Both the position numbers and the translations under genes were made by a program. The notes under the pieces were generated by a model that saw nothing but the letters and a program-made list of their open reading frames with translations, searched no databases and was not told the origin of the DNA. Positions 311-23,674 of a stretch of DNA of 23,674 nt are shown here, piece after piece; position 1 is the first letter of the stretch, and every line of letters starts with the position of its first letter. Source of the stretch: a virus; the IMG/VR virus record IMGVR_UViG_3300021197_001061, positions 1 through 23,674 of that record. One strand, written 5' to 3'.

Positions 311-511
311 CTATTCTTCCCGGTCATTATGAAAACCTTGGTCCCGCATTTCCTGCATACCGGAGACCCGTATACTACTTTGCCTAAGTATTTCTCGTTT
401 TTCTTCGTCACTTGCGCTTCTCCAAATTCTAATATCCCTGACAGTCATTCCACAACCAACACATACGTTCTGATCGTTCAATGAACACACCCTGACACAC
501 GGTGATTTCAT
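311..511 (-). CDS. DUF1289-family Cys-rich small protein
   Basis: This 66-residue protein is the only gene read leftward in the window. It begins with SPCVRVCSLNDQNVCVGCG, so four cysteines (C5, C9, C17, C20) form a CxxxC...CxxC cluster. RDIRIW and a short charged helix with DEEKREIL follow. This is the typical layout of DUF1289 proteins, small presumed metal or Fe-S proteins common in Proteobacteria and also found in phages; their biochemical role is not established. The start is supported by AAGGAG on the reverse strand (519-524), seven bases before the ATG. It is isolated from the rightward operon, so it may be expressed at a different time. The rightward promoter at 152-180 would make RNA antisense to it. 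The family call is confident; the function is unknown. Confidence 0.8.
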   Translation of the reverse strand: MKSPCVRVCSLNDQNVCVGCGMTVRDIRIWRSASDEEKREILRQSSIRVSGMQEMRDQGFHNDREE

Positions 512-3026: not shown

Positions 3027-4106
3027 ATGAAGACAGCTATAATCTTTGGGGTAACAGGACAAGACGGAAGTCACTTGGCGGACTTGCTACTAGAAAAAAA
3101 CTATAAAGTTACGGGCGTTACAAGAAGAACAAGCACAGATAACACGACACGTATTTCGCATTTACTTAATAACGAAAATTTCAAGTTAGCGAGTGGCGAT
3201 ATTACAGATGCGTCCAGTGTTTTAAATATACTTAGAGAACACGAACAAGTAGATGAAGTCTATAATCTTGCAGCACAATCGCACGTTGCAGTTTCATTTA
3301 AGCAACCCGGATTAACTTGGGATATAACAGGAAAAGGATGTTTAAATATTTTACAAGGATTAGTAGATCTAAACATGTTAGGTGCTAGATTTTATCAAGC
3401 AAGCAGCAGTGAAATGTTTGGAAAAAATTATGATATCGAAGTAGGCATGACCTCTGAAACCAAATATCAAAATGAAGAGACTAAATTTTTGCCGCAAAGT
3501 CCATATGCTATTGCTAAATGTGCTGCCCACTATATGACTGCTCTGTACAGGGATGGTTATGGAATACATGCAAGTGCCGGTATACTATTTAATCATGAAG
3601 GACCGCGAAGAGGAGAAACTTTCGTAACAAGAAAAATCACAAAATGGATTGGTGACTTTGTTAAATGGAACAATCCAACAAACGAGACGGGGGCGATTAT
3701 AGATATCCCTAAGCAAGACGATGAGAATATGCTTTATAACTCCCTTATGGACGGAGAGGGTTTTCCCAAGCTTCGTCTAGGCAATCTAGACGCATATCGA
3801 GACTGGGGATACGCTGGAGACTACTGTGAAGCGATGTGGATGATGCTGCAACAAGATGAAGCAGACGACTATGTTATTTGTACAGGAGAAACGCATACTA
3901 TTAGGGAATTCCTAAATGTTGCTTTTCAAGAAGCAGGGATAACCGATTGGTCTGCTTATGTTATTCAAGATCCAGAGTTCTACAGACCAGCAGAGGTTGA
4001 TTACCTTAGAGGTGATTGTAGCAAAGCAAATACGAAACTAGGATGGACACCTAAACATAGTTTTGAAGACTTGGTTAAAATGATGGTAAAGCATGATCTA
4101 GAATGA
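3027..4106 (+). CDS. gmd: GDP-mannose 4,6-dehydratase-like protein
   Basis: This is an extended short-chain dehydrogenase/reductase. GVTGQDG (8-14) is the glycine-rich NADP-binding loop, LAAQSHVAVSF (81-91) is a Gmd-type segment, and the catalytic set appears as S127-S128-E129 plus Y160-x3-K164. NHEGPRRGETFVTRKI (189-204) and LGNLDAYRDWGYAGDYCEAMW (about 252-272) are typical of GDP-mannose 4,6-dehydratase, which makes GDP-4-keto-6-deoxymannose, the precursor of GDP-fucose, rhamnose and perosamine. The 359-aa length fits the family. Between about residues 210 and 250 it carries roughly 35 residues more than the usual sequence, including an Asp/Glu-rich stretch. AGGA precedes the ATG. The next gene starts inside its stop codon. 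No later enzyme of the sugar pathway is in the window, so it probably feeds host enzymes or genes elsewhere in the phage. Confidence 0.9.
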   Translation: MKTAIIFGVTGQDGSHLADLLLEKNYKVTGVTRRTSTDNTTRISHLLNNENFKLASGDITDASSVLNILREHEQVDEVYNLAAQSHVAVSFKQPGLTWDITGKGCLNILQGLVDLNMLGARFYQASSSEMFGKNYDIEVGMTSETKYQNEETKFLPQSPYAIAKCAAHYMTALYRDGYGIHASAGILFNHEGPRRGETFVTRKITKWIGDFVKWNNPTNETGAIIDIPKQDDENMLYNSLMDGEGFPKLRLGNLDAYRDWGYAGDYCEAMWMMLQQDEADDYVICTGETHTIREFLNVAFQEAGITDWSAYVIQDPEFYRPAEVDYLRGDCSKANTKLGWTPKHSFEDLVKMMVKHDLE

Positions 4107-13501: not shown

Positions 13502-16500
13502 ATGACTATTAGATCTAGAGACGAATTTCAAAACCTAATAAATTCTCTACTACCAGACAATAGTTCTAGAGAAATATCGCCAGAAGACATGAGATCAGTA
13601 TTTACTGATCTTGCAGATTCTATCGGTTCCTTCTTGGCAAAGCAAGAAATTGTTTCACTAAATTTCGCTACGCCAGATACTAGAACAACAATAGCAGGCG
13701 AAGATGCGCTAAAACAAATAGGACTAACAGGAAGATTCTCAACAGATAACTCTGCTCTAGGTTATGGTGCATTACAGTTTAGTTACACTGGAGAGAGAAA
13801 TACCGCAATAGGTTCTGAAAGTCTAAAGTTTCTCTCTTTAGGTCATGATAATGTTGCTATAGGTAAAGATACTCTTTGCGCAACGACTGCCGGTTCTGGT
13901 AATGTTGCGTTAGGAAACTTTGCGTTGCAAAAAAATAAAAGAGGTGACTTTAATATTGCCATAGGTCATGGCGCTGGTCATTATGTAGATGATAATTCAA
14001 GTTTTAAAGTATACTTAGGTTCTTTTCCTGATGCGTCTGGTGGTTGCGATATCCCACAAATCTCTGGAAAACCACCTCTTATTTATGGCGATCTATTAAA
14101 AAACCAACTTGGTATAGGTGTCAAGTCTTTTCATAATGACACCACTGCGCTTCAAGTTTCGGGCAACATAATACCACACGAAAGCGGTGGTTCATTTTCT
14201 CTAGGTAGTGGTTCGTATACTTGGGATGCTTACCTTAATAATGTCTACATTTCTGGTGAATTAAGTTATCCTCTTGCTTGGGATTTCAATGTAACAGATG
14301 GTGCAGTCGCTCCTAATCTCGTTGCAAGTGGAGACACTATTCACATAAGTGGCGTAAGTGGAATAAAAACTGAATTCTTAGACCTAAATGAAAATAAGTA
14401 TGTATTTATATCAGCAAATCCAATTTCAGGTTGGGCGGAATCAAATTTAAATTCTATATCTGGAGACAACGGTTTATTACACAGTATTTCTGGTTATCCA
14501 AATGGTTTAGTCTATCAAGCCAGCGGTTCACTTGCTAGTGAAATTAATGCTGTTTCAGGTGTCGGTGGTCAAATAGACCAAGTTAGTGGTTGGTCACAAT
14601 ATAATTTCTCTGCTATAAGCGGGTTTCCAAACGGTCTATTATATCAGAGTAGTGGATCTCTTGCTAGTGAGATAAACTCAGTATCTGGCGCGGGAGGTGT
14701 TATCGACCAAGTTTCTGGTTATCTAGCCAATTACCCTCAAGGTTTAATATATCTTGTCAGCGGTTGGAATAAGGGGTATACAGATGCGCAAGTGGGTGCT
14801 GCTGGTGGTTATACTTTCTGGGAATTAGAAGGTCAATATGGCGCATCGGGAATAATCAATCATGCAGATACGGTTATTATAAGCGGTTGCAGTGGTGTTG
14901 AAACCACACTAGATTTTAACGAAAATGGCGTAACAAATAACTACAGATTAAATATTAACGCTGCGCCGATTTCTGGTTATATAGACGCTAGAGAAGTTGC
15001 TCTAACTACTTTAATAAGCACCAACTCTAACGATATCGACGATATTACAGATGTAAGATTACCACAAATTTCTGGTTTTCCCAATGGTTTATTGTACTTA
15101 GCGAGTGGTTCGCTTGCTAGTGAAATAAATGATGTTTCTGGTGTTGGCGGGCAAATAGATTCTGTCAGTGGTTGGACTTATGATAACCTAAATCTTCTCT
15201 CTGGAGTTCATAATGGTCCTCTTTGGGGAGGTAGACCATCAGGTTTGATATTCCAAGTCAGTGGATTTTTGAAACATTATATAGACAATAAAGACTTAAC
15301 TGCCGGTGGTTACAACCACTGGAAAGTTGAAACTATAGATGATTACGACACAACAAGATCTTCTTTTAATGTTGACTCAAAAGATACAGTATTATTTTCT
15401 GGCGTTGATGGGATCGCGATTAGTGGTTACGAAGACTCTAGTCTAAATACAGTTGAGATAAGCGCATCTCCTATTTCTGGATATCTTGAGTCTAGACTTG
15501 AATCTATTATTGAAGATATAAATACAAACACTGAAACCAATAACAGTCAAGCAAATTCTATTACTGACCTTGAGGGAAATATAGCGTCAACAGGTAGAAC
15601 GCTTTTAAAAGAGATAGACACAATCAGTGGCGTAAACGGAACCTTAAAGCAAACAAGCGGAAACCTAAACAATACAATATCTTCTTTGTCGGGTTATCTA
15701 AGCAATTACCCAGAAGGTTTGATTTATTTAGTTAGCGGTTGGAATAAACAATATACCGACACTCAGGTAGACTTCAATGTAGGTGAAGATGGATACGGTT
15801 ACTGGAGAATTGGTGACGCAACAGACATTAACTACCAAGTCGGATCGACGGATAAAGTAAACGCAATCGGCAAAGATGGAATTTCAACACAAGTAAGACA
15901 AGATGCCGGTATAAACTACTTAGATATCTCTGCCTCTCCTTTATCTGGACTAATGGTAGATGACCTTAATAGTATCTCTGGTATCGGCGGTATAATAGAC
16001 GAAAGAATAAAAAATGCCGGGGGAGATGGAACGCTTTTCACTTGGATTCTTTCTGACTCAGTTAGAGATTCTCAAATACAAGGAACTGACAAAGCAAAGT
16101 TTGTCGGAGTTTCTGGTATAGAAACTTTCTTGGAAATAGACAACGACAAAGTTCTGATATCCGCACATCCTCTTTCTGGATACCTTGACTCTAGAATTGA
16201 TGGAATATCTTCTCAACTTGATTGTATAAAAGGTGTAAACTGCCCGGATTCAAACACAGAGTGCTGTGACAATGTTAGCGGCTGGACATTAACAAATCTA
16301 AACACTTTAAGTGGCATAGCGCCTACGATTTACGGTCCTAGTGGTTTGATATGGAGCGTAAGTGGCAATATTAGAGATTATATAAACAGCGAAATCCAAG
16401 GTCTGTCTCTTTCTTCTGACAGTTACTCTCATTGGAGAATAAGCGACGGAACTACAATTCGTAGTATTAGAGCCTTAGAAGAAACTCAGTTTCTGGGTGT

Positions 16501-17572
16501 TAGTGGAATAGAAACTCAAACAAGGACTACGGGTGCTAGTGGATTGACCATATCTGCCGGTCCTCTGTCGGGTTGGGCAAACTACAACTTCTATAATGAA
16601 CTTGGTCAGACAAGGATCAGAGCAAAACAAGCAAAGAACGATGCGGTTGCGCACGCCAACCTTGCTAGTGGTTCCTTGGCTTATGAGATAAATCAAGTTT
16701 CTGGTTATCCCAACGGTCTGGTTTATCAGGTTAGCGGTTGGACTGCCGGTGAACTTAACTCCATATCTGGGGTCGGTGGTCAGATAGATGCTGTTAGCGG
16801 TTGGTCTCTAGAAAATCTAACTCAAATATCTGGATTTAACGGCATAATAGATCAGGTTAGCGGTTGGACAGAATATAATTTAGATGCTATATCTGGCGTA
16901 GACGGTGTAATTGATCAAGATGTTTCCGCAATGAGCGGCGCTCTCAACAATGAATTAAATCTCCTATCTGGGGTTGCAGATAATCTCTGGAATGGTTATC
17001 CTTCTGGTTTAATTTGGCAAGTTAGTGGTATATTCAATACTGTCTCTCTTCTTAACCTTACAGCGGGTAGTGGTTTAATCTTAGAAAACGATGAGTTTAG
17101 AACTCACGGAAGCGGAACCTTCAATAAAGTTATCCTAAGTAGAAACTCCGATCCATCTGGTCAAATAGTTGCTGATTCTGGTGGTCCTAATAATATTGTT
17201 AATTCAAGTGGTTATCTTGTTACTCCTTTTTACGATAAAAGGACCACGCTAGAAACCGCAATAACTCCTTCTGCTGCAAATTCTGGTGCTATATTCTTTG
17301 CTGGAGATCATCCGGTAAGGTCTCAAGGTTCTTCTTGGTCAAGACCTGTGAATATAGAAGGTTTCTTAGTAGATGATTTACTTGCACCAACAAGTTATAA
17401 TAGTCCTACGAGCGGTAGACTTACAGTTATGGATGATCAGTTTTCAACGTCTGATGTTGTTTATGTGACAAATAGAGATACCTATCTTTCAATTAGCGGT
17501 ACACTTTTCTGCGTTGCGAGTTTAGTCAATGGAGAATATAGACCAATCTACCATGCTTGCAGTGGAGCTTAA
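13502..17572 (+). CDS. Giant repeat-rich tail fibre/adhesin-like protein
   Basis: The 1356-aa protein has an N-terminal cap (residues 1-50, ISPEDMRSVFTDLADSIGSF) that probably joins it to the virion. Next are five NxAxG repeats (83-155) exactly 17 residues apart, as in trimeric adhesin heads and phage fibres. Then a long region (about 250-1180) of Ser-Gly motifs such as ISGVGGQIDQVSGW and SGSLASEIN alternates with six larger modules that begin with a Trp (W260, W440, W607, W768, W848, W978) and end near P-I/L-S-G. A C-terminal domain (about 1190-1356) has no such repeats and probably contacts the host or ends the fibre. No chaperone/self-cleaving domain is seen. The protein is probably trimeric and made from tandem duplications. 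The receptor cannot be told. Confidence 0.8.
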   Translation: MTIRSRDEFQNLINSLLPDNSSREISPEDMRSVFTDLADSIGSFLAKQEIVSLNFATPDTRTTIAGEDALKQIGLTGRFSTDNSALGYGALQFSYTGERNTAIGSESLKFLSLGHDNVAIGKDTLCATTAGSGNVALGNFALQKNKRGDFNIAIGHGAGHYVDDNSSFKVYLGSFPDASGGCDIPQISGKPPLIYGDLLKNQLGIGVKSFHNDTTALQVSGNIIPHESGGSFSLGSGSYTWDAYLNNVYISGELSYPLAWDFNVTDGAVAPNLVASGDTIHISGVSGIKTEFLDLNENKYVFISANPISGWAESNLNSISGDNGLLHSISGYPNGLVYQASGSLASEINAVSGVGGQIDQVSGWSQYNFSAISGFPNGLLYQSSGSLASEINSVSGAGGVIDQVSGYLANYPQGLIYLVSGWNKGYTDAQVGAAGGYTFWELEGQYGASGIINHADTVIISGCSGVETTLDFNENGVTNNYRLNINAAPISGYIDAREVALTTLISTNSNDIDDITDVRLPQISGFPNGLLYLASGSLASEINDVSGVGGQIDSVSGWTYDNLNLLSGVHNGPLWGGRPSGLIFQVSGFLKHYIDNKDLTAGGYNHWKVETIDDYDTTRSSFNVDSKDTVLFSGVDGIAISGYEDSSLNTVEISASPISGYLESRLESIIEDINTNTETNNSQANSITDLEGNIASTGRTLLKEIDTISGVNGTLKQTSGNLNNTISSLSGYLSNYPEGLIYLVSGWNKQYTDTQVDFNVGEDGYGYWRIGDATDINYQVGSTDKVNAIGKDGISTQVRQDAGINYLDISASPLSGLMVDDLNSISGIGGIIDERIKNAGGDGTLFTWILSDSVRDSQIQGTDKAKFVGVSGIETFLEIDNDKVLISAHPLSGYLDSRIDGISSQLDCIKGVNCPDSNTECCDNVSGWTLTNLNTLSGIAPTIYGPSGLIWSVSGNIRDYINSEIQGLSLSSDSYSHWRISDGTTIRSIRALEETQFLGVSGIETQTRTTGASGLTISAGPLSGWANYNFYNELGQTRIRAKQAKNDAVAHANLASGSLAYEINQVSGYPNGLVYQVSGWTAGELNSISGVGGQIDAVSGWSLENLTQISGFNGIIDQVSGWTEYNLDAISGVDGVIDQDVSAMSGALNNELNLLSGVADNLWNGYPSGLIWQVSGIFNTVSLLNLTAGSGLILENDEFRTHGSGTFNKVILSRNSDPSGQIVADSGGPNNIVNSSGYLVTPFYDKRTTLETAITPSAANSGAIFFAGDHPVRSQGSSWSRPVNIEGFLVDDLLAPTSYNSPTSGRLTVMDDQFSTSDVVYVTNRDTYLSISGTLFCVASLVNGEYRPIYHACSGA
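13748..13966 (+). repeat. Five 17-residue NxAxG repeats in the fibre
   Basis: In the encoded fibre, N83SALG, N100TAIG, N117VAIG, N134VALG and N151IAIG stand at an exact 17-residue step. Regular NxAIG repeats of this type form left-handed or trimeric beta-rolls in adhesin heads such as YadA/Hia and occur in phage fibres. The step length is constant (51 bases), so it likely arose by tandem duplication. Confidence 0.75.
14279..17030 (+). repeat. SG-repeat region with six Trp-started modules
   Basis: Six related modules start at Trp codons at 14279, 14819, 15320, 15803, 16043 and 16433. Each holds a D/E-T-V/K...SGVSGIET-like strand and ends ISA-x-P-I/L-SGY/W/L. Between them are shorter Ser-Gly units. 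The SGSLASEIN unit appears at 14522-14548, 14651-14677 and 15104-15130, with a diverged copy at 16667-16693. The DNA of these copies is similar but not identical, so duplication is not recent, or selection keeps the protein. Confidence 0.75.
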
Positions 17573-17575
17573 AAT

Positions 17576-20500
17576 ATGACATGTTGTTGCGTAACACCAC
17601 CTCCAGATCCTCCTCCTGTGGGTTCTTGTTGCTTTACAGAGATAAGTAAAAGCGTACCGAAAAAGACTGGGGCTAGTCGTCAAAATCAAAGCGATCCATT
17701 AGACGTACTTAACAATGGTGATCCACTAGGTAGTTTAGATGCTGCTATAACTGCTACATCTGCTTATCTTCAGGGTGGAGGAGATCTTGGGTATTTCTAT
17801 GACGTAAATGGGGATGGGTTTATAACCGCCGCCGATTTACTTGCTTTGGTGAACCTAAGAGCTTTCTTTGAACAAAGCCTTCGCTCCAATGGTAACGTGT
17901 GCGTGGACAACATAACTCAAGCGCAATGTTTTTCAAGCGTTGGTCTATCAGAAGAAACGGTCAATGGAACGCGAACTTTTTTCAGGAGGGGTAGACATAA
18001 ATTCAATCCAAATCAAACTTGCGGAGAACAAGTTTCATGTCCTCTTGTTCCTAGTCTTTCTTACAACACTGCTTGTGGAGAAGTAGATTGCCCCGGATAC
18101 TATTGCAATGTAGAAACTGGCGACTGTGGTTTACGTAGTTCTATAGACTCAAGTTTATTAGGAAGTTATCCCTACACACTGGTTGACAATTGTAATGAAT
18201 GTGAAAAACAAAATCCCGGATGCTGCTGCTACTACTGGGAAGACCCTGAAGGAAAAATACCAGACTACAATAATGTTTTTTACGTCTCAGACGATTCACT
18301 ATGCAATGCCGGTAGAATTTTTCATGTAAATCAATTTATATTTCCTACTTCAAAGTTTGTTGGTGAAGCCAACGGCGGATTTACTAGAGACTCTAATGGA
18401 AACATTACTTGTGGTTCGATATCTCCTTGTAACGGAGATGATGATGACGATCCTCCGGTTAGCGGTTGGTATTGCCTTGAGGATTTTAGCAGTGGAAACA
18501 AGTTTTGTCAATTCTTTAACAGAGACCCTAAAGAAGAAGGGTTTATTGACACTGAAGTAAAAGGTGGTCCGTTTCAAGAGAAAAGCATTTGCGACGAGAA
18601 TTGTTCCGATGGTGATGATGATCCTCCCCATCCTCCCGCAGATCAAGGTTACATATGCTTGAGTATGGATAAAAATGGATTATCAGATATAGTCTTGACT
18701 AACGATTGTAATGTAGACCCTTTTACCATAGATGTTTCAGTAAATAGATTTAAATATGATAAAACGGGCAAGGCTGGACCTGTATCTGTTGAAGTTGTAG
18801 CTCTTCGTAACAATGTTGAACTTCTTTCTGGTACGGTAAATTTCCCCACTCCAGATATAGTAAACGAAGAGTTTACTCAAACAGTACCTTTTACTTTAAC
18901 TCTACCTAGAGATTTTTCTACTGGTGAACATCCTTTATTTGTACAACTTAGGAACCCGACAAATGGAGCGAAGATAAGCAGTTTTACGTGCCGTTTAGAA
19001 ATTAAAGTTGTAATTCCAGACGAGTGTCCATTTTGTTGCAAAGATGATGCTGTTATAGGAACAAATATTTCTCCTTGTGATTGCTTTGCTTTAGGCGGCG
19101 AATGCTCAAATACAAATGACTGCGGCACACCTAGAGATGACCTAGGTCGATGCTGTTACGGTCCACAGTGTTACGAAGCTTGTCCAGAAGACTTCATATG
19201 CGAAGACGGAATAACCAAGCGAGAGTGTGACGAAAAAATATTCACCATTAACGGAATAAGCTTCCAAACGCAAACAAATTTTTCAAAAGGCGAGAATTGC
19301 GATTCTGATCCTTGCTATACAACTACCACAACAACCACAACTCCAAGTCCATGTTCTTGCGCAGAGGCAGGAAAAATAGATTGTGAAGAAAATATAAATG
19401 AAGACGGTTGTATATTTGTATATAATTCATCGACTGATTCTTTCTCATTGACTTCAAATTGTCCAGATGGAGCATCTTGCTTAGATTACGATGTAGATTG
19501 CTTTAGAACTCCCGCGCTAAGTAACGGCGATTTATTTGGAAAACCATGTTGCTGTACAACGCCGCCGCCCGCAAGTTCAAACTGTGATTATTGCTGTGTA
19601 GATCCAGACGGAGCAGGTTCAACAACCCTTACCTCTGCTGAATGTGCTGCCCTAAAAGGTGTTTGTATAAATTCTGGAGACCTTCCCGCCTATACCGCAA
19701 GTTCTCCTTTTGGAGACGTGGCAAAATCCTACTGCAATACAAACGGTTGCGACCTAACCACGGGATACTTAGTAAGATATGAGGGAAGTGGAGTTCATAC
19801 CCCTAACAGTCAATCGTATACCATATCGACTAGCGGAAACGTTAACTTCCGTCTTTACAGTGGTCTTTTACATGATAAGTCTTTTTCTTGGACTAATCTA
19901 GATTCTGGGAATTGCCCTGTAAAAGTAACCTTAAAGAAAGATGGCGTTACCGTATGCGAATCGCCATACTTTGGTGATCCGTCTTACCAAGCAGAACTAG
20001 ACGCGGCCTTAGGTTCTTCAAGTCCAATATCTAGTTGGCAGGGTCTATTTCATAGTGGTATTTTCTTTGATGGTGCGGGAACTCTAGGTGTAGATATTAG
20101 TTCTCCACTAGATTGCGGAGAGAAGTCAACTTGGTCCTATAATGCGACCTGTCCTTATAACTGTATAAACAGTATTGTTAATAACATGACTGATGAATTT
20201 AGCGATTTTTTTATCCCCGCATTTGAAAGAAGATTTGCTCACGTAATTAATTCAGACGGGTTTTTAAATTTTGATCTATATCCAAACTTGGGATATAATC
20301 CAAACAGACTTTTTGATTTTGACACTGATACAAGCACCTTTGCTCACATTGTAGATAAAATCGAGCCGGCTGTAAGTCGTTACAGTACACAGCAATTCAA
20401 AACGGTTATGATAGGTCAAAAATATAGAGGTGTTGGTTCATCTCAATTCCGCGACTGTGGTGTTGGTACGAATTATTTTTATAAACTAGATGGCACTCCG

Positions 20501-21466
20501 GGATCACTGGATGGTTCAACTACACTGGGAGATTTAAATGGTTTTTGGCAACTAGGCACTCCCCCAGACGTTTCAGGACTTGATATAGAAGATGGTTCAG
20601 CAAGTTTTCGGGTAAACACTCTCATAGGACATCCCGATCATTCAAGTTCATATAATATAACTATCAATTATTCATATAGTATATCAGATACGCTCACTTC
20701 AAATAATTGTCAACCTGTATACGAATGGCCCGCTTACCCTCGAAATTTACTAGAATGGGACAACCCTGAGAACGTCCAAAATTTCCTCTCAAACTTCGCA
20801 AGGAATAGTCGCTATGACTATCCGACAAAAGGTTGTTCTCAAGCAAGTTTAATGCTTCACGTAAAACAAGTAGGAAACCTATGCTCTCGAAAATACATAC
20901 CCTCATCAGGAGAGCGATCAGGACAAAGCTGCTCGTATGACTTTAACGATTTTAAAATTGGTTGTATTACGGTACACTCTCAAGACAAATCGGATCAAAC
21001 CCTTCCTGATGAATTTGATTATAAATTTTTATACGAGGCGCCTTATTTATCTTTGGACGAGGTTTTATTAGCAGGTACTAATAACTATCAGGATTGTTCA
21101 TGCTTTGCAACTATGTGTTGCGACGGCTCAGACCTTAATGGCGATTGTTACGAAAATGTTTCAGAAGAAACATGCGATTGCAAAATAGGCGCTGGACTTT
21201 ATAATCCCACTACTCAAGAACTATTTGACGACCCCTGCAATCCAGTATTTTACGACTTCTCTAGTGTTTACACACACTGGAATGCGTTTTATCAGATCTT
21301 ACCTAGAGCTGGATTCCGCACTTGCACTGCTCCTCCTTCTGAAGTTCCTGAAGCAAGCGATTACGATTTCTCTGGAAGCGCCGGTTTTTGGACTTATCCA
21401 AGTTGTGGTGAAATTAAAAGAATATGCGCAGGAGAAGACCTCTCAGGAGGCGGCGGCGGAATTTAA
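17576..21466 (+). CDS. Giant cysteine-rich protein with dockerin-like loop
   Basis: A 1296-aa protein with about 80 cysteines by my count (near 6 percent), often as CC or CCC. It starts MTCCCVTPPPDPPP. Residues 76-87 (DVNGDGFITAAD) form a full EF-hand/dockerin calcium loop, followed by LLALVNL; a weaker copy may lie at 43-62. Two Asp-Pro linkers (GDDDDDPP near 285, GDDDPPHPP near 345) each lead into a G-W/Y-x-C-L segment. Residues about 355-485 look like an Ig-type beta-sandwich. Eight Thr in a row (582-589) form a linker to more Cys-rich units. No signal peptide or membrane helix is seen. It lies between the fibre and a glycosyltransferase, so it is probably a virion surface protein. GGAG (17564-17567) precedes the ATG. 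The exact role is unknown. Confidence 0.6.
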   Translation: MTCCCVTPPPDPPPVGSCCFTEISKSVPKKTGASRQNQSDPLDVLNNGDPLGSLDAAITATSAYLQGGGDLGYFYDVNGDGFITAADLLALVNLRAFFEQSLRSNGNVCVDNITQAQCFSSVGLSEETVNGTRTFFRRGRHKFNPNQTCGEQVSCPLVPSLSYNTACGEVDCPGYYCNVETGDCGLRSSIDSSLLGSYPYTLVDNCNECEKQNPGCCCYYWEDPEGKIPDYNNVFYVSDDSLCNAGRIFHVNQFIFPTSKFVGEANGGFTRDSNGNITCGSISPCNGDDDDDPPVSGWYCLEDFSSGNKFCQFFNRDPKEEGFIDTEVKGGPFQEKSICDENCSDGDDDPPHPPADQGYICLSMDKNGLSDIVLTNDCNVDPFTIDVSVNRFKYDKTGKAGPVSVEVVALRNNVELLSGTVNFPTPDIVNEEFTQTVPFTLTLPRDFSTGEHPLFVQLRNPTNGAKISSFTCRLEIKVVIPDECPFCCKDDAVIGTNISPCDCFALGGECSNTNDCGTPRDDLGRCCYGPQCYEACPEDFICEDGITKRECDEKIFTINGISFQTQTNFSKGENCDSDPCYTTTTTTTTPSPCSCAEAGKIDCEENINEDGCIFVYNSSTDSFSLTSNCPDGASCLDYDVDCFRTPALSNGDLFGKPCCCTTPPPASSNCDYCCVDPDGAGSTTLTSAECAALKGVCINSGDLPAYTASSPFGDVAKSYCNTNGCDLTTGYLVRYEGSGVHTPNSQSYTISTSGNVNFRLYSGLLHDKSFSWTNLDSGNCPVKVTLKKDGVTVCESPYFGDPSYQAELDAALGSSSPISSWQGLFHSGIFFDGAGTLGVDISSPLDCGEKSTWSYNATCPYNCINSIVNNMTDEFSDFFIPAFERRFAHVINSDGFLNFDLYPNLGYNPNRLFDFDTDTSTFAHIVDKIEPAVSRYSTQQFKTVMIGQKYRGVGSSQFRDCGVGTNYFYKLDGTPGSLDGSTTLGDLNGFWQLGTPPDVSGLDIEDGSASFRVNTLIGHPDHSSSYNITINYSYSISDTLTSNNCQPVYEWPAYPRNLLEWDNPENVQNFLSNFARNSRYDYPTKGCSQASLMLHVKQVGNLCSRKYIPSSGERSGQSCSYDFNDFKIGCITVHSQDKSDQTLPDEFDYKFLYEAPYLSLDEVLLAGTNNYQDCSCFATMCCDGSDLNGDCYENVSEETCDCKIGAGLYNPTTQELFDDPCNPVFYDFSSVYTHWNAFYQILPRAGFRTCTAPPSEVPEASDYDFSGSAGFWTYPSCGEIKRICAGEDLSGGGGGI
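19319..19342 (+). repeat. Poly-threonine linker (eight Thr) in Cys-rich protein
   Basis: Eight consecutive Thr codons are followed by Pro-Ser-Pro, a linker type often found in secreted cell-wall-binding and cellulosome proteins and a frequent O-glycosylation target. The codons are a mix of ACA, ACT and ACC, so it is not a simple slippage tract. Confidence 0.7.
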
Positions 21467-22515: not shown

Positions 22516-23674
22516 ATGGCACTTATAATAGCAGACAGAGTTAAAGAAACTACTACAACTCAGGGGACCGGAACGGTCACTCTTGGAGGTTCTACTTTTG
22601 GAGGATTTCAGTCATTCTCCGACTCTGTGGGCGAAGGAAACTCAACTTACTACTGTATCGAAAACGGTTCTAATTTCGAGATTGGAGTTGGTACATTTTC
22701 TTCTGGGACTTTTAGTAGAGATACAGTTCTTCAAAGTTCTAATTCAGATAGTAAAATAAGTTTAGTCGGCACTTCTGTTATTTTTGGCGTTCTCCCTGCG
22801 GAAAAATTAGTATTTAAAGATGAAAATAACAATACGTTATTTCCTACGCCAACTGTATTTAAAAGATCCGATAGCGGGGATTATTGGCAAGCATTTTCTA
22901 CTGATGTTCCTTCAAGGGTCGTTTCTTTTTATATTACTGAATCAACAGATGCTCAATGGAAAATTGGTTTAAAAACTTCTAGCACTGATACTGTAGAACC
23001 TTCTTATGGATATATTACCGCTAAAGAGGGATTTGTAGAGGTAAAAGGTTCTGCTCTTTCATACTTAAATATAGGTCAAGAAAATGACGAAGGACTGAAG
23101 GTCTCACACAATCTGACTGATATCGTTCATTTAAGAAAAAACGGTGGTGAGATAACCGTAGAGACACTTTCTCTGGATAGCACTAACTCTACTAAAATAA
23201 AAAATACTTCAATTGGCAACCCTGTTCTTGAAGTCGAGTCTGCTGTCAGTCATGCTTCAGATCTCCAAACATGGAATGTCGCAACCATAGAAAAAGCAAG
23301 TATAGATAAGGATGGTCATTTTCAAACAGTTGGTGATGTTATATCTCCTAGTGGTAAATTTTCTTCAGTAAGATTTAGTGACTTAACTATTCAAACAACC
23401 GCTGGGTTGCCTTTCATTAGCGGTCAATTAATAGATCAAAATAAAGCCGACATAGCAACCGTGTCTGGTTTGCTCTACAATGACGCTTCTCTTTCTGGCT
23501 ACTTCCAGTCTCGCGTAGACTCGGCAGATTCTAGCATCTCAACTAACTCTTCTAGTATCACTGCGAACTCAGGATACTTTGAGTCTAGGGTTGATTTAAC
23601 TGACGAAAACATTGTTTATATATCTGGAATTGCTGTCTTTGCTTCTGGTCACAATTTACAGTCTGTCACAGATA
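22516..23674 (+). CDS. Second fibre-like virion protein, partial at window end
   Basis: The frame is open from ATG 22516 to the window edge (386 codons), so the 3' end is missing. AGGGA lies seven bases before the ATG. The start, ALIIADRVKETTTTQGTGTV, with FGGFQSFSDSVGEGN and YYCIENGSNFEIGVGTF after it, is a common N-terminal domain of phage fibre-like proteins that carries a Tyr/Cys and FEIGVGTF strand set. A beta-rich middle follows. From about residue 295 it holds Ser-Gly units (SGLLYND, SGYFQSRVDSADSS, SGYFESRVD) that match the SGYLESRL/SGYLDSRI units of the 13502 fibre. It is therefore probably a related fibre or tail-surface protein. The last part of the function cannot be seen. Confidence 0.75.
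   Translation, partial: MALIIADRVKETTTTQGTGTVTLGGSTFGGFQSFSDSVGEGNSTYYCIENGSNFEIGVGTFSSGTFSRDTVLQSSNSDSKISLVGTSVIFGVLPAEKLVFKDENNNTLFPTPTVFKRSDSGDYWQAFSTDVPSRVVSFYITESTDAQWKIGLKTSSTDTVEPSYGYITAKEGFVEVKGSALSYLNIGQENDEGLKVSHNLTDIVHLRKNGGEITVETLSLDSTNSTKIKNTSIGNPVLEVESAVSHASDLQTWNVATIEKASIDKDGHFQTVGDVISPSGKFSSVRFSDLTIQTTAGLPFISGQLIDQNKADIATVSGLLYNDASLSGYFQSRVDSADSSISTNSSSITANSGYFESRVDLTDENIVYISGIAVFASGHNLQSVTD

Follow-up and report, generated by a model that had tools for sequence, protein, structure and literature searches.

A modular cysteine-rich protein with a putative dockerin-derived module at the tail locus of uncultured marine phages

Dockerins are calcium-dependent plugs, best known from the bacterial complexes that digest cellulose. 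Receptor-binding proteins usually combine a constant N-terminus with variable distal domains, and to our knowledge a high cysteine content and modules of the dockerin, GACC (defined below), Hint and matrixin types are unusual in phage tail-fibre and receptor-binding proteins. Full-text searching of open-licence papers brought up no account of a virion dockerin. Dockerin similarity was given as a BLAST remark for gene 40 of phage VvAW1, and that gene was discussed as a possible attP region (PMC3558961). The tailspike Gp02 of vB_EcoS_HSE2 has a module of about 106 residues, which was termed a cellulosome 'dockerin carbohydrate binding module' with reference to PDB 2WZ8 (PMC5967307).

The stretch of DNA analyzed here (the window) is a 23.7-kb fragment of an IMG/VR virus record. 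It encodes small regulator-like genes, an HNH nuclease, an ERCC4-type nuclease, a ClpP-like protease, terminase, portal, a cement protein and a head protein. The terminase, portal and head genes lie upstream of the cysteine-rich protein P0001, and together with the virus record they confirm the phage origin assumed in the earlier note. After the head gene, a 1,356-aa fibre, P0001, a glycosyltransferase and a second fibre follow in this order:

13502..17572, plus strand: fibre with YadA-head-like repeats and C-terminus EYRPIYHACSGA; PHROGs matches to virion structural (1.4e-18) and tail spike (1.6e-14) proteins
17576..21466, plus strand: modular cysteine-rich tail-locus protein P0001, 1,296 aa; orthologues L002, L003 and L004
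21487..22512, plus strand: GT2-like glycosyltransferase, sub-threshold with Pfam GT2, kept in 27 loci; 3' border of the P0001 slot
22516..23673, plus strand: second fibre-like protein (MALIIADRVKETT...), which runs off the window

Related terminase loci were abundant in IMG/VR (at least 589, among them contigs of 157-174 kb), and in INPHARED the identity was only about 27%, to Bacillus phages. The phage belongs to an uncultured marine family with no close INPHARED isolate. About a dozen related contigs conserve, upstream of their packaging genes, the DUF1289 gene that the window has at 311-511 (minus strand). Among 14 control genomes, those of E. coli and Caulobacter also encode a DUF1289 protein, and so do 2 of 59 Planctomycetota genomes. 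One possibility, that this gene came from a proteobacterial host and marks the edge of a prophage, was rejected: these phages conserve it as one of their own genes, so prophage integration at the left end of the window was rejected too. The packaging-gene block includes a GDP-mannose 4,6-dehydratase-like gene (3027-4106, plus strand); L066, L126, L127, L128 and G005 have one at the corresponding position.

The open reading frame of P0001 starts with ATG and ends with a stop codon. It has 82 cysteines, close to the 80 or so of the earlier note, which is 6.3% of the residues compared with 0-2.9% in the 14 other main ORFs of the window. The CC and CCC clusters noticed earlier are present at eight sites. 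There were 11 CC pairs against 5.1 expected, with a maximum of 14 in 2,000 residue shuffles of the same protein; clustering beyond composition is only moderate (about twofold), and the composition is the more remarkable trait. The intact loop DVNGDGFITAAD followed by LLALVNL was located at aa 76-87, and the threonine run is exactly eight residues long. The stretch previously called Ig-like does look beta-rich by eye and has no Pfam match. P0001 had no match in NCBIfam, and neither the full-length protein nor its pieces gave anything meaningful when searched directly against INPHARED. Its parts are as follows:

17576..17632, plus strand: N-terminal cap CCCVTPPPDPPPVGSCC, aa 1-19, in a form common to most slot proteins; proposed virion anchor
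17681..17890, plus strand: dockerin-type module, aa 36-105, between two cysteine sites of the first GACC module, the pair 18-19 and Cys 109; Pfam and profile matches, AlphaFold2 model
17702..17740, plus strand: first calcium loop DVLNNGDPLGSLD, aa 43-55, degenerate by alignment and wholly lost in L002
17801..17836, plus strand: second calcium loop DVNGDGFITAAD, aa 76-87, intact by sequence, Pfam and relatives
17885..18040, plus strand: putative second half of the first six-Cys GACC module, about aa 104-155; its 8.8 bits with the held-out profile do no more than match the top score among 20 shuffles, which is weak alone
18647..19021, plus strand: beta-rich stretch, about aa 358-482; resemblance to Ig domains judged only by eye
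19145..19315, plus strand: putative second GACC-type module, aa 524-580; held-out profile 6.8 bits, inside the shuffle range
19319..19342, plus strand: run of eight Thr, a linker, aa 582-589; T- or S-rich linkers recur in relatives
21116..21238, plus strand: C-terminal CC..C..C..C segment, aa 1181-1221, a possible further GACC-type module; held-out profile about 0 bits

Pfam Dockerin type I (PF00404) has a curated cut-off of 22.9 bits. P0001 stayed below it, with 17.8 bits as a protein, covering the second half only, and 21.9 bits in a six-frame search of the window. Its direct orthologue L004 (G002) passed with 27.4-30.2 bits over positions 5-54. Of 29 relatives' contigs, nine including that of L004 had a match over the cut-off at the same slot (about 30-53 bits), the best extending over positions 2-56 of 57. 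In eight of these nine, a two-loop dockerin lies inside an RCC1-like propeller, and both loops are canonical in L101, L105, L106, L107, L109, L110 and L125. The same two-loop test in P0001 gave a canonical second loop and a non-canonical first loop, DVLNNGDPLGSLD, which at 13 residues is one too long; L002 is without the first loop. The sequence DLGYFYDVNGDGFIT is invariant in L002, L003 and L004, within a segment that is only 52-70% identical. A profile of aa 1-200 plus the phage dockerins gave only four matches in PDB, all of them cellulosomal dockerins (E 0.003-0.006), and a profile of the propeller-type proteins matched RCC1-like propellers and dockerins.

AlphaFold2 modelling of aa 36-108 with 11 sequences (pLDDT 80, pTM 0.70) placed the loop in a loop-helix-loop-helix, with helices at 15-32 and 50-69 arranged as in dockerins. 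Foldseek with this 73-residue model ranked dockerins 1-3, with E values of 0.9-2.3 that are not significant. A model of the 200-aa segment including the GACC module had pLDDT 42, too low to interpret outside the dockerin. The short model suggests a dockerin-like fold for aa 36-105. So the dockerin idea of the earlier note is right at the level of homology, considering the orthologue, the eight two-loop relatives, the PDB profile and the model, and it is not supported for P0001 as a full dockerin. Because the score is below the threshold and the first loop is degenerate, yet homology to dockerins is supported, we call the module dockerin-derived and not a canonical dockerin.

Slot loci were gathered with the glycosyltransferase as anchor, giving 27 loci, some of them near-identical. 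In all of them the slot is fixed between the YadA-head-like fibre and the glycosyltransferase. Close orthologues of P0001 are L003 (87%), L002 (81%) and L004 (71%, first 343 aa only). The slot proteins nearly always start with a Cys/Pro cap, missing from two of them (L114/L115 and L121), and continue with a six-Cys GACC module. After this they diverge into dockerin, propeller, Hint or matrixin types. The RCC1-like propeller with a two-loop dockerin inside is found in L101, L105, L106, L107, L109, L110 and L125, and in L122 with a longer linker. Total cysteine in the slot proteins ranges from 1.6 to 11.7%, and therefore only the N-terminus is cysteine-rich in the propeller type. Many relatives fill the slot with dockerin-less proteins, so the dockerin is not essential to the slot.

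Hint/intein-like domains were found after the first GACC module in L066 (12419-13399), L112 (7603-9960), L113 (8467-9978), L117, L119, L123 and L124. L112 passes the intein C-terminal model and L113 just passes Hint_2; self-processing of the adhesin by such domains is possible. In the 1,833-aa protein L123 (4448-9946), 140 residues are cysteines, and a matrixin (M10) domain with HEIGHMIGIAH accompanies the Hint domain.

We defined the GACC module by the spacing GACC-x-C-x-C-x-[FW]-x-C-x-C, and tested it by a held-out profile, trained on distant members and applied to the others. The relatives scored 11-25 bits (up to 24.8), and the residue-shuffle maximum was 8.8. P0001 reached only 8.8 and 6.8 bits against that maximum, therefore the module there is assigned by analogy, and by the same analogy its dockerin would lie between the second and third cysteine of the first GACC module. 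A 53% identical copy of the second module (aa 524-580) is present in L100. GACC modules might be expected in planctomycete proteins. At E 0.001 none of 99 genomes had a match to the short profile, a result that carries no weight since such a profile is not sensitive enough for whole-genome searching.

Divergence along the protein is uneven. The dockerin insert and the next half-module are 52-70% identical between P0001 and its relatives. Across aa 161-870, L002 and L003 are 89-94% identical to P0001, and L002 departs again over the C-terminal third. Where the N-terminal part has diverged, dS rises along with dN (L002 dS 1.44 vs 0.1-0.3). The dockerin insert, with omega 0.3-0.8, is among the segments most diverged at both synonymous and non-synonymous sites. 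Because dS rises together with dN, the diverged N-terminal segment was probably replaced by recombination, rather than shaped by positive selection alone. Divergence of the dockerin segment is consistent with module swapping under purifying selection.

Taken together, we consider, with a probability of roughly 60%, that P0001 is a modular disulfide-rich adhesin or decoration protein, most likely on the virion, built of swappable modules of which one is dockerin-derived. Its slot is beside a fibre with PHROG virion and tail-spike matches, in a block of structural genes, which supports this reading, as does the apparently constant N-terminal cap with variable distal domains. Display on the virion is probable from gene position and layout, and we infer calcium binding, disulfides and a protein partner. 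P0001 would be made without a signal peptide and carried in or beside the tail-fibre assembly. The N-terminal cap and the first GACC module would be the constant part, probably attaching it to the particle, and the modules beyond would be exchangeable between phages. In P0001 the exchangeable, calcium-loaded dockerin-derived domain would sit inside the first GACC module. Its second loop would bind at least one Ca2+, and its helical surface, resembling that of a dockerin, would face a protein partner outside the host cytosol. Disulfide pairing would follow lysis or take place during release. No hydrophobic signal segment or signal peptide was found in the slot proteins examined; this agrees with the earlier proposal of oxidation outside the cytosol or after lysis, and Sec export of P0001 is not supported. 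Against the adhesin reading, the P0001 dockerin is sub-threshold with a non-canonical first loop and a Foldseek E of about 1, two slot proteins are capless, and many are dockerin-less.

The module might instead be purely structural, a calcium loop which stiffens or spaces the adhesin with no cohesin partner, and this we regard as a possibility of some weight. EF-hand-like spacers are common in extracellular proteins. The first loop is degenerate and the second stays invariant, the module is tethered at both ends inside other domains (GACC module or propeller), and a cohesin profile search at E up to 1 matched none of 12 phage contigs, four of them of 157-174 kb. However, two-loop dockerins are kept in at least eight relatives, and the helix that follows the loop and would be turned towards any partner is conserved in character.

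It is unlikely, but worth considering, that the dockerin binds a cohesin on the host surface, so that attachment exploits a cohesin-dockerin system belonging to the host. The presence of two-loop dockerins in a tail locus argues for this, and the host lead is in line with it. DUF1501 proteins are encoded by the near relative G005 (162,690 bp; its terminase is 95% identical) and by each of the four remaining long contigs (G006, G007, G008 and G025), with one to three genes per phage; those of G005, including L134:14111-16611 (minus strand; G005:114113-116493), have Tat-like RR..FLQ starts. One G005 protein is 64% identical over its full length to a protein of a Planctomycetota genome (plasmid copies 28-32%), and INPHARED gave only one weak DUF1501 match. 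The DUF1501 genes are possibly host-derived auxiliary genes and a host marker. Among 59 Planctomycetota genomes, dockerins were found in 16 and cohesins over the cut-off in 8. Because of this identity and these dockerins and cohesins, a planctomycete host is likely for the phage family and possible for the phage of the window. Working against receptor use, the host, and with it a cohesin, is only putative, the P0001 copy is without one canonical loop, and many slot relatives are dockerin-less. In a wider picture, large marine phages, probably of Planctomycetota, would display tail dockerins that dock onto cohesin-bearing host surface proteins, and at a single adhesin locus they would exchange modules of the dockerin, propeller, Hint and protease types; this is more doubtful still.

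Host assignment via MAG contigs (SAR202, Flavobacteriales and Gemmataceae) was rejected, since over the stretches examined each of the three resembles phage sequence that was binned into a MAG. The G005 genome also encodes a tmRNA with the tag ADESLALAA (L135:18989-19303, minus strand) and a thioredoxin-like protein with an N-terminal hydrophobic segment (L135:10230-10961, minus strand), which could act on the cysteine-rich protein. At about 88-106 kb (L133:8537-L134:6578) it has some 20 genes, by eye of nucleotide-sugar, glycosyltransferase and methyltransferase types.

We think it improbable that P0001 is absent from the virion and released at lysis, acting on neighbouring cells or polymers. 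The matrixin domain of L123 and the Hint domains of several slot proteins recall secreted effectors, and the cysteine content suits extracellular life, but the gene lies among head, fibre and tail genes, the N-terminal cap is common to slot proteins, and there is no export signal. Least probable is coupling inside the virion, in which a neighbouring fibre or LamG protein would have an unrecognised beta domain of cohesin type, and the module would assemble the tail by plugging into it: beta-rich fibres and Laminin_G_3 proteins are encoded adjacent and divergent cohesins are easily missed by Pfam, but the cohesin search of the 12 contigs was negative and dockerin-less phages keep the same fibres.

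On the adhesin reading, the slot is a site of modular, disulfide-rich adhesins in a phage family that is abundant but uncultured and that gains a Planctomycetota host lead from DUF1501. Display of the module on virions would mean that a virus makes use of a dockerin, and the roles of many non-cellulosomal dockerins and cohesins of environmental bacteria could then be tested from the phage side.

Compared with cellulosomal dockerins of type I (PF00404; 1OHZ, 2CCL, 3UL4 and 4FL4), P0001 has the same second F-hand loop DxNxDGxIxxxD with a hydrophobic helix, the same spacing of the two halves and, by its model, a predicted loop-helix-loop-helix. It differs in the degenerate first loop of its group and in its place, in a cysteine-rich phage protein and not at the end of a glycosidase, and any cohesin partner of P0001 is hypothetical. 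The slot proteins L101, L105 and L125 share with P0001 the slot, the Cys cap, a GACC module that is putative in P0001, and the dockerin, but have two canonical loops inside an RCC1-like propeller, which P0001 is without. With phage tail-fibre and receptor-binding proteins P0001 shares the locus, the constant N-terminus and the variable distal modules. VvAW1 gene 40 and HSE2 Gp02 resemble it in that a dockerin-type or cellulosome similarity was reported in a phage genome, whereas the HSE2 module is without the two-loop fold of this phage family.
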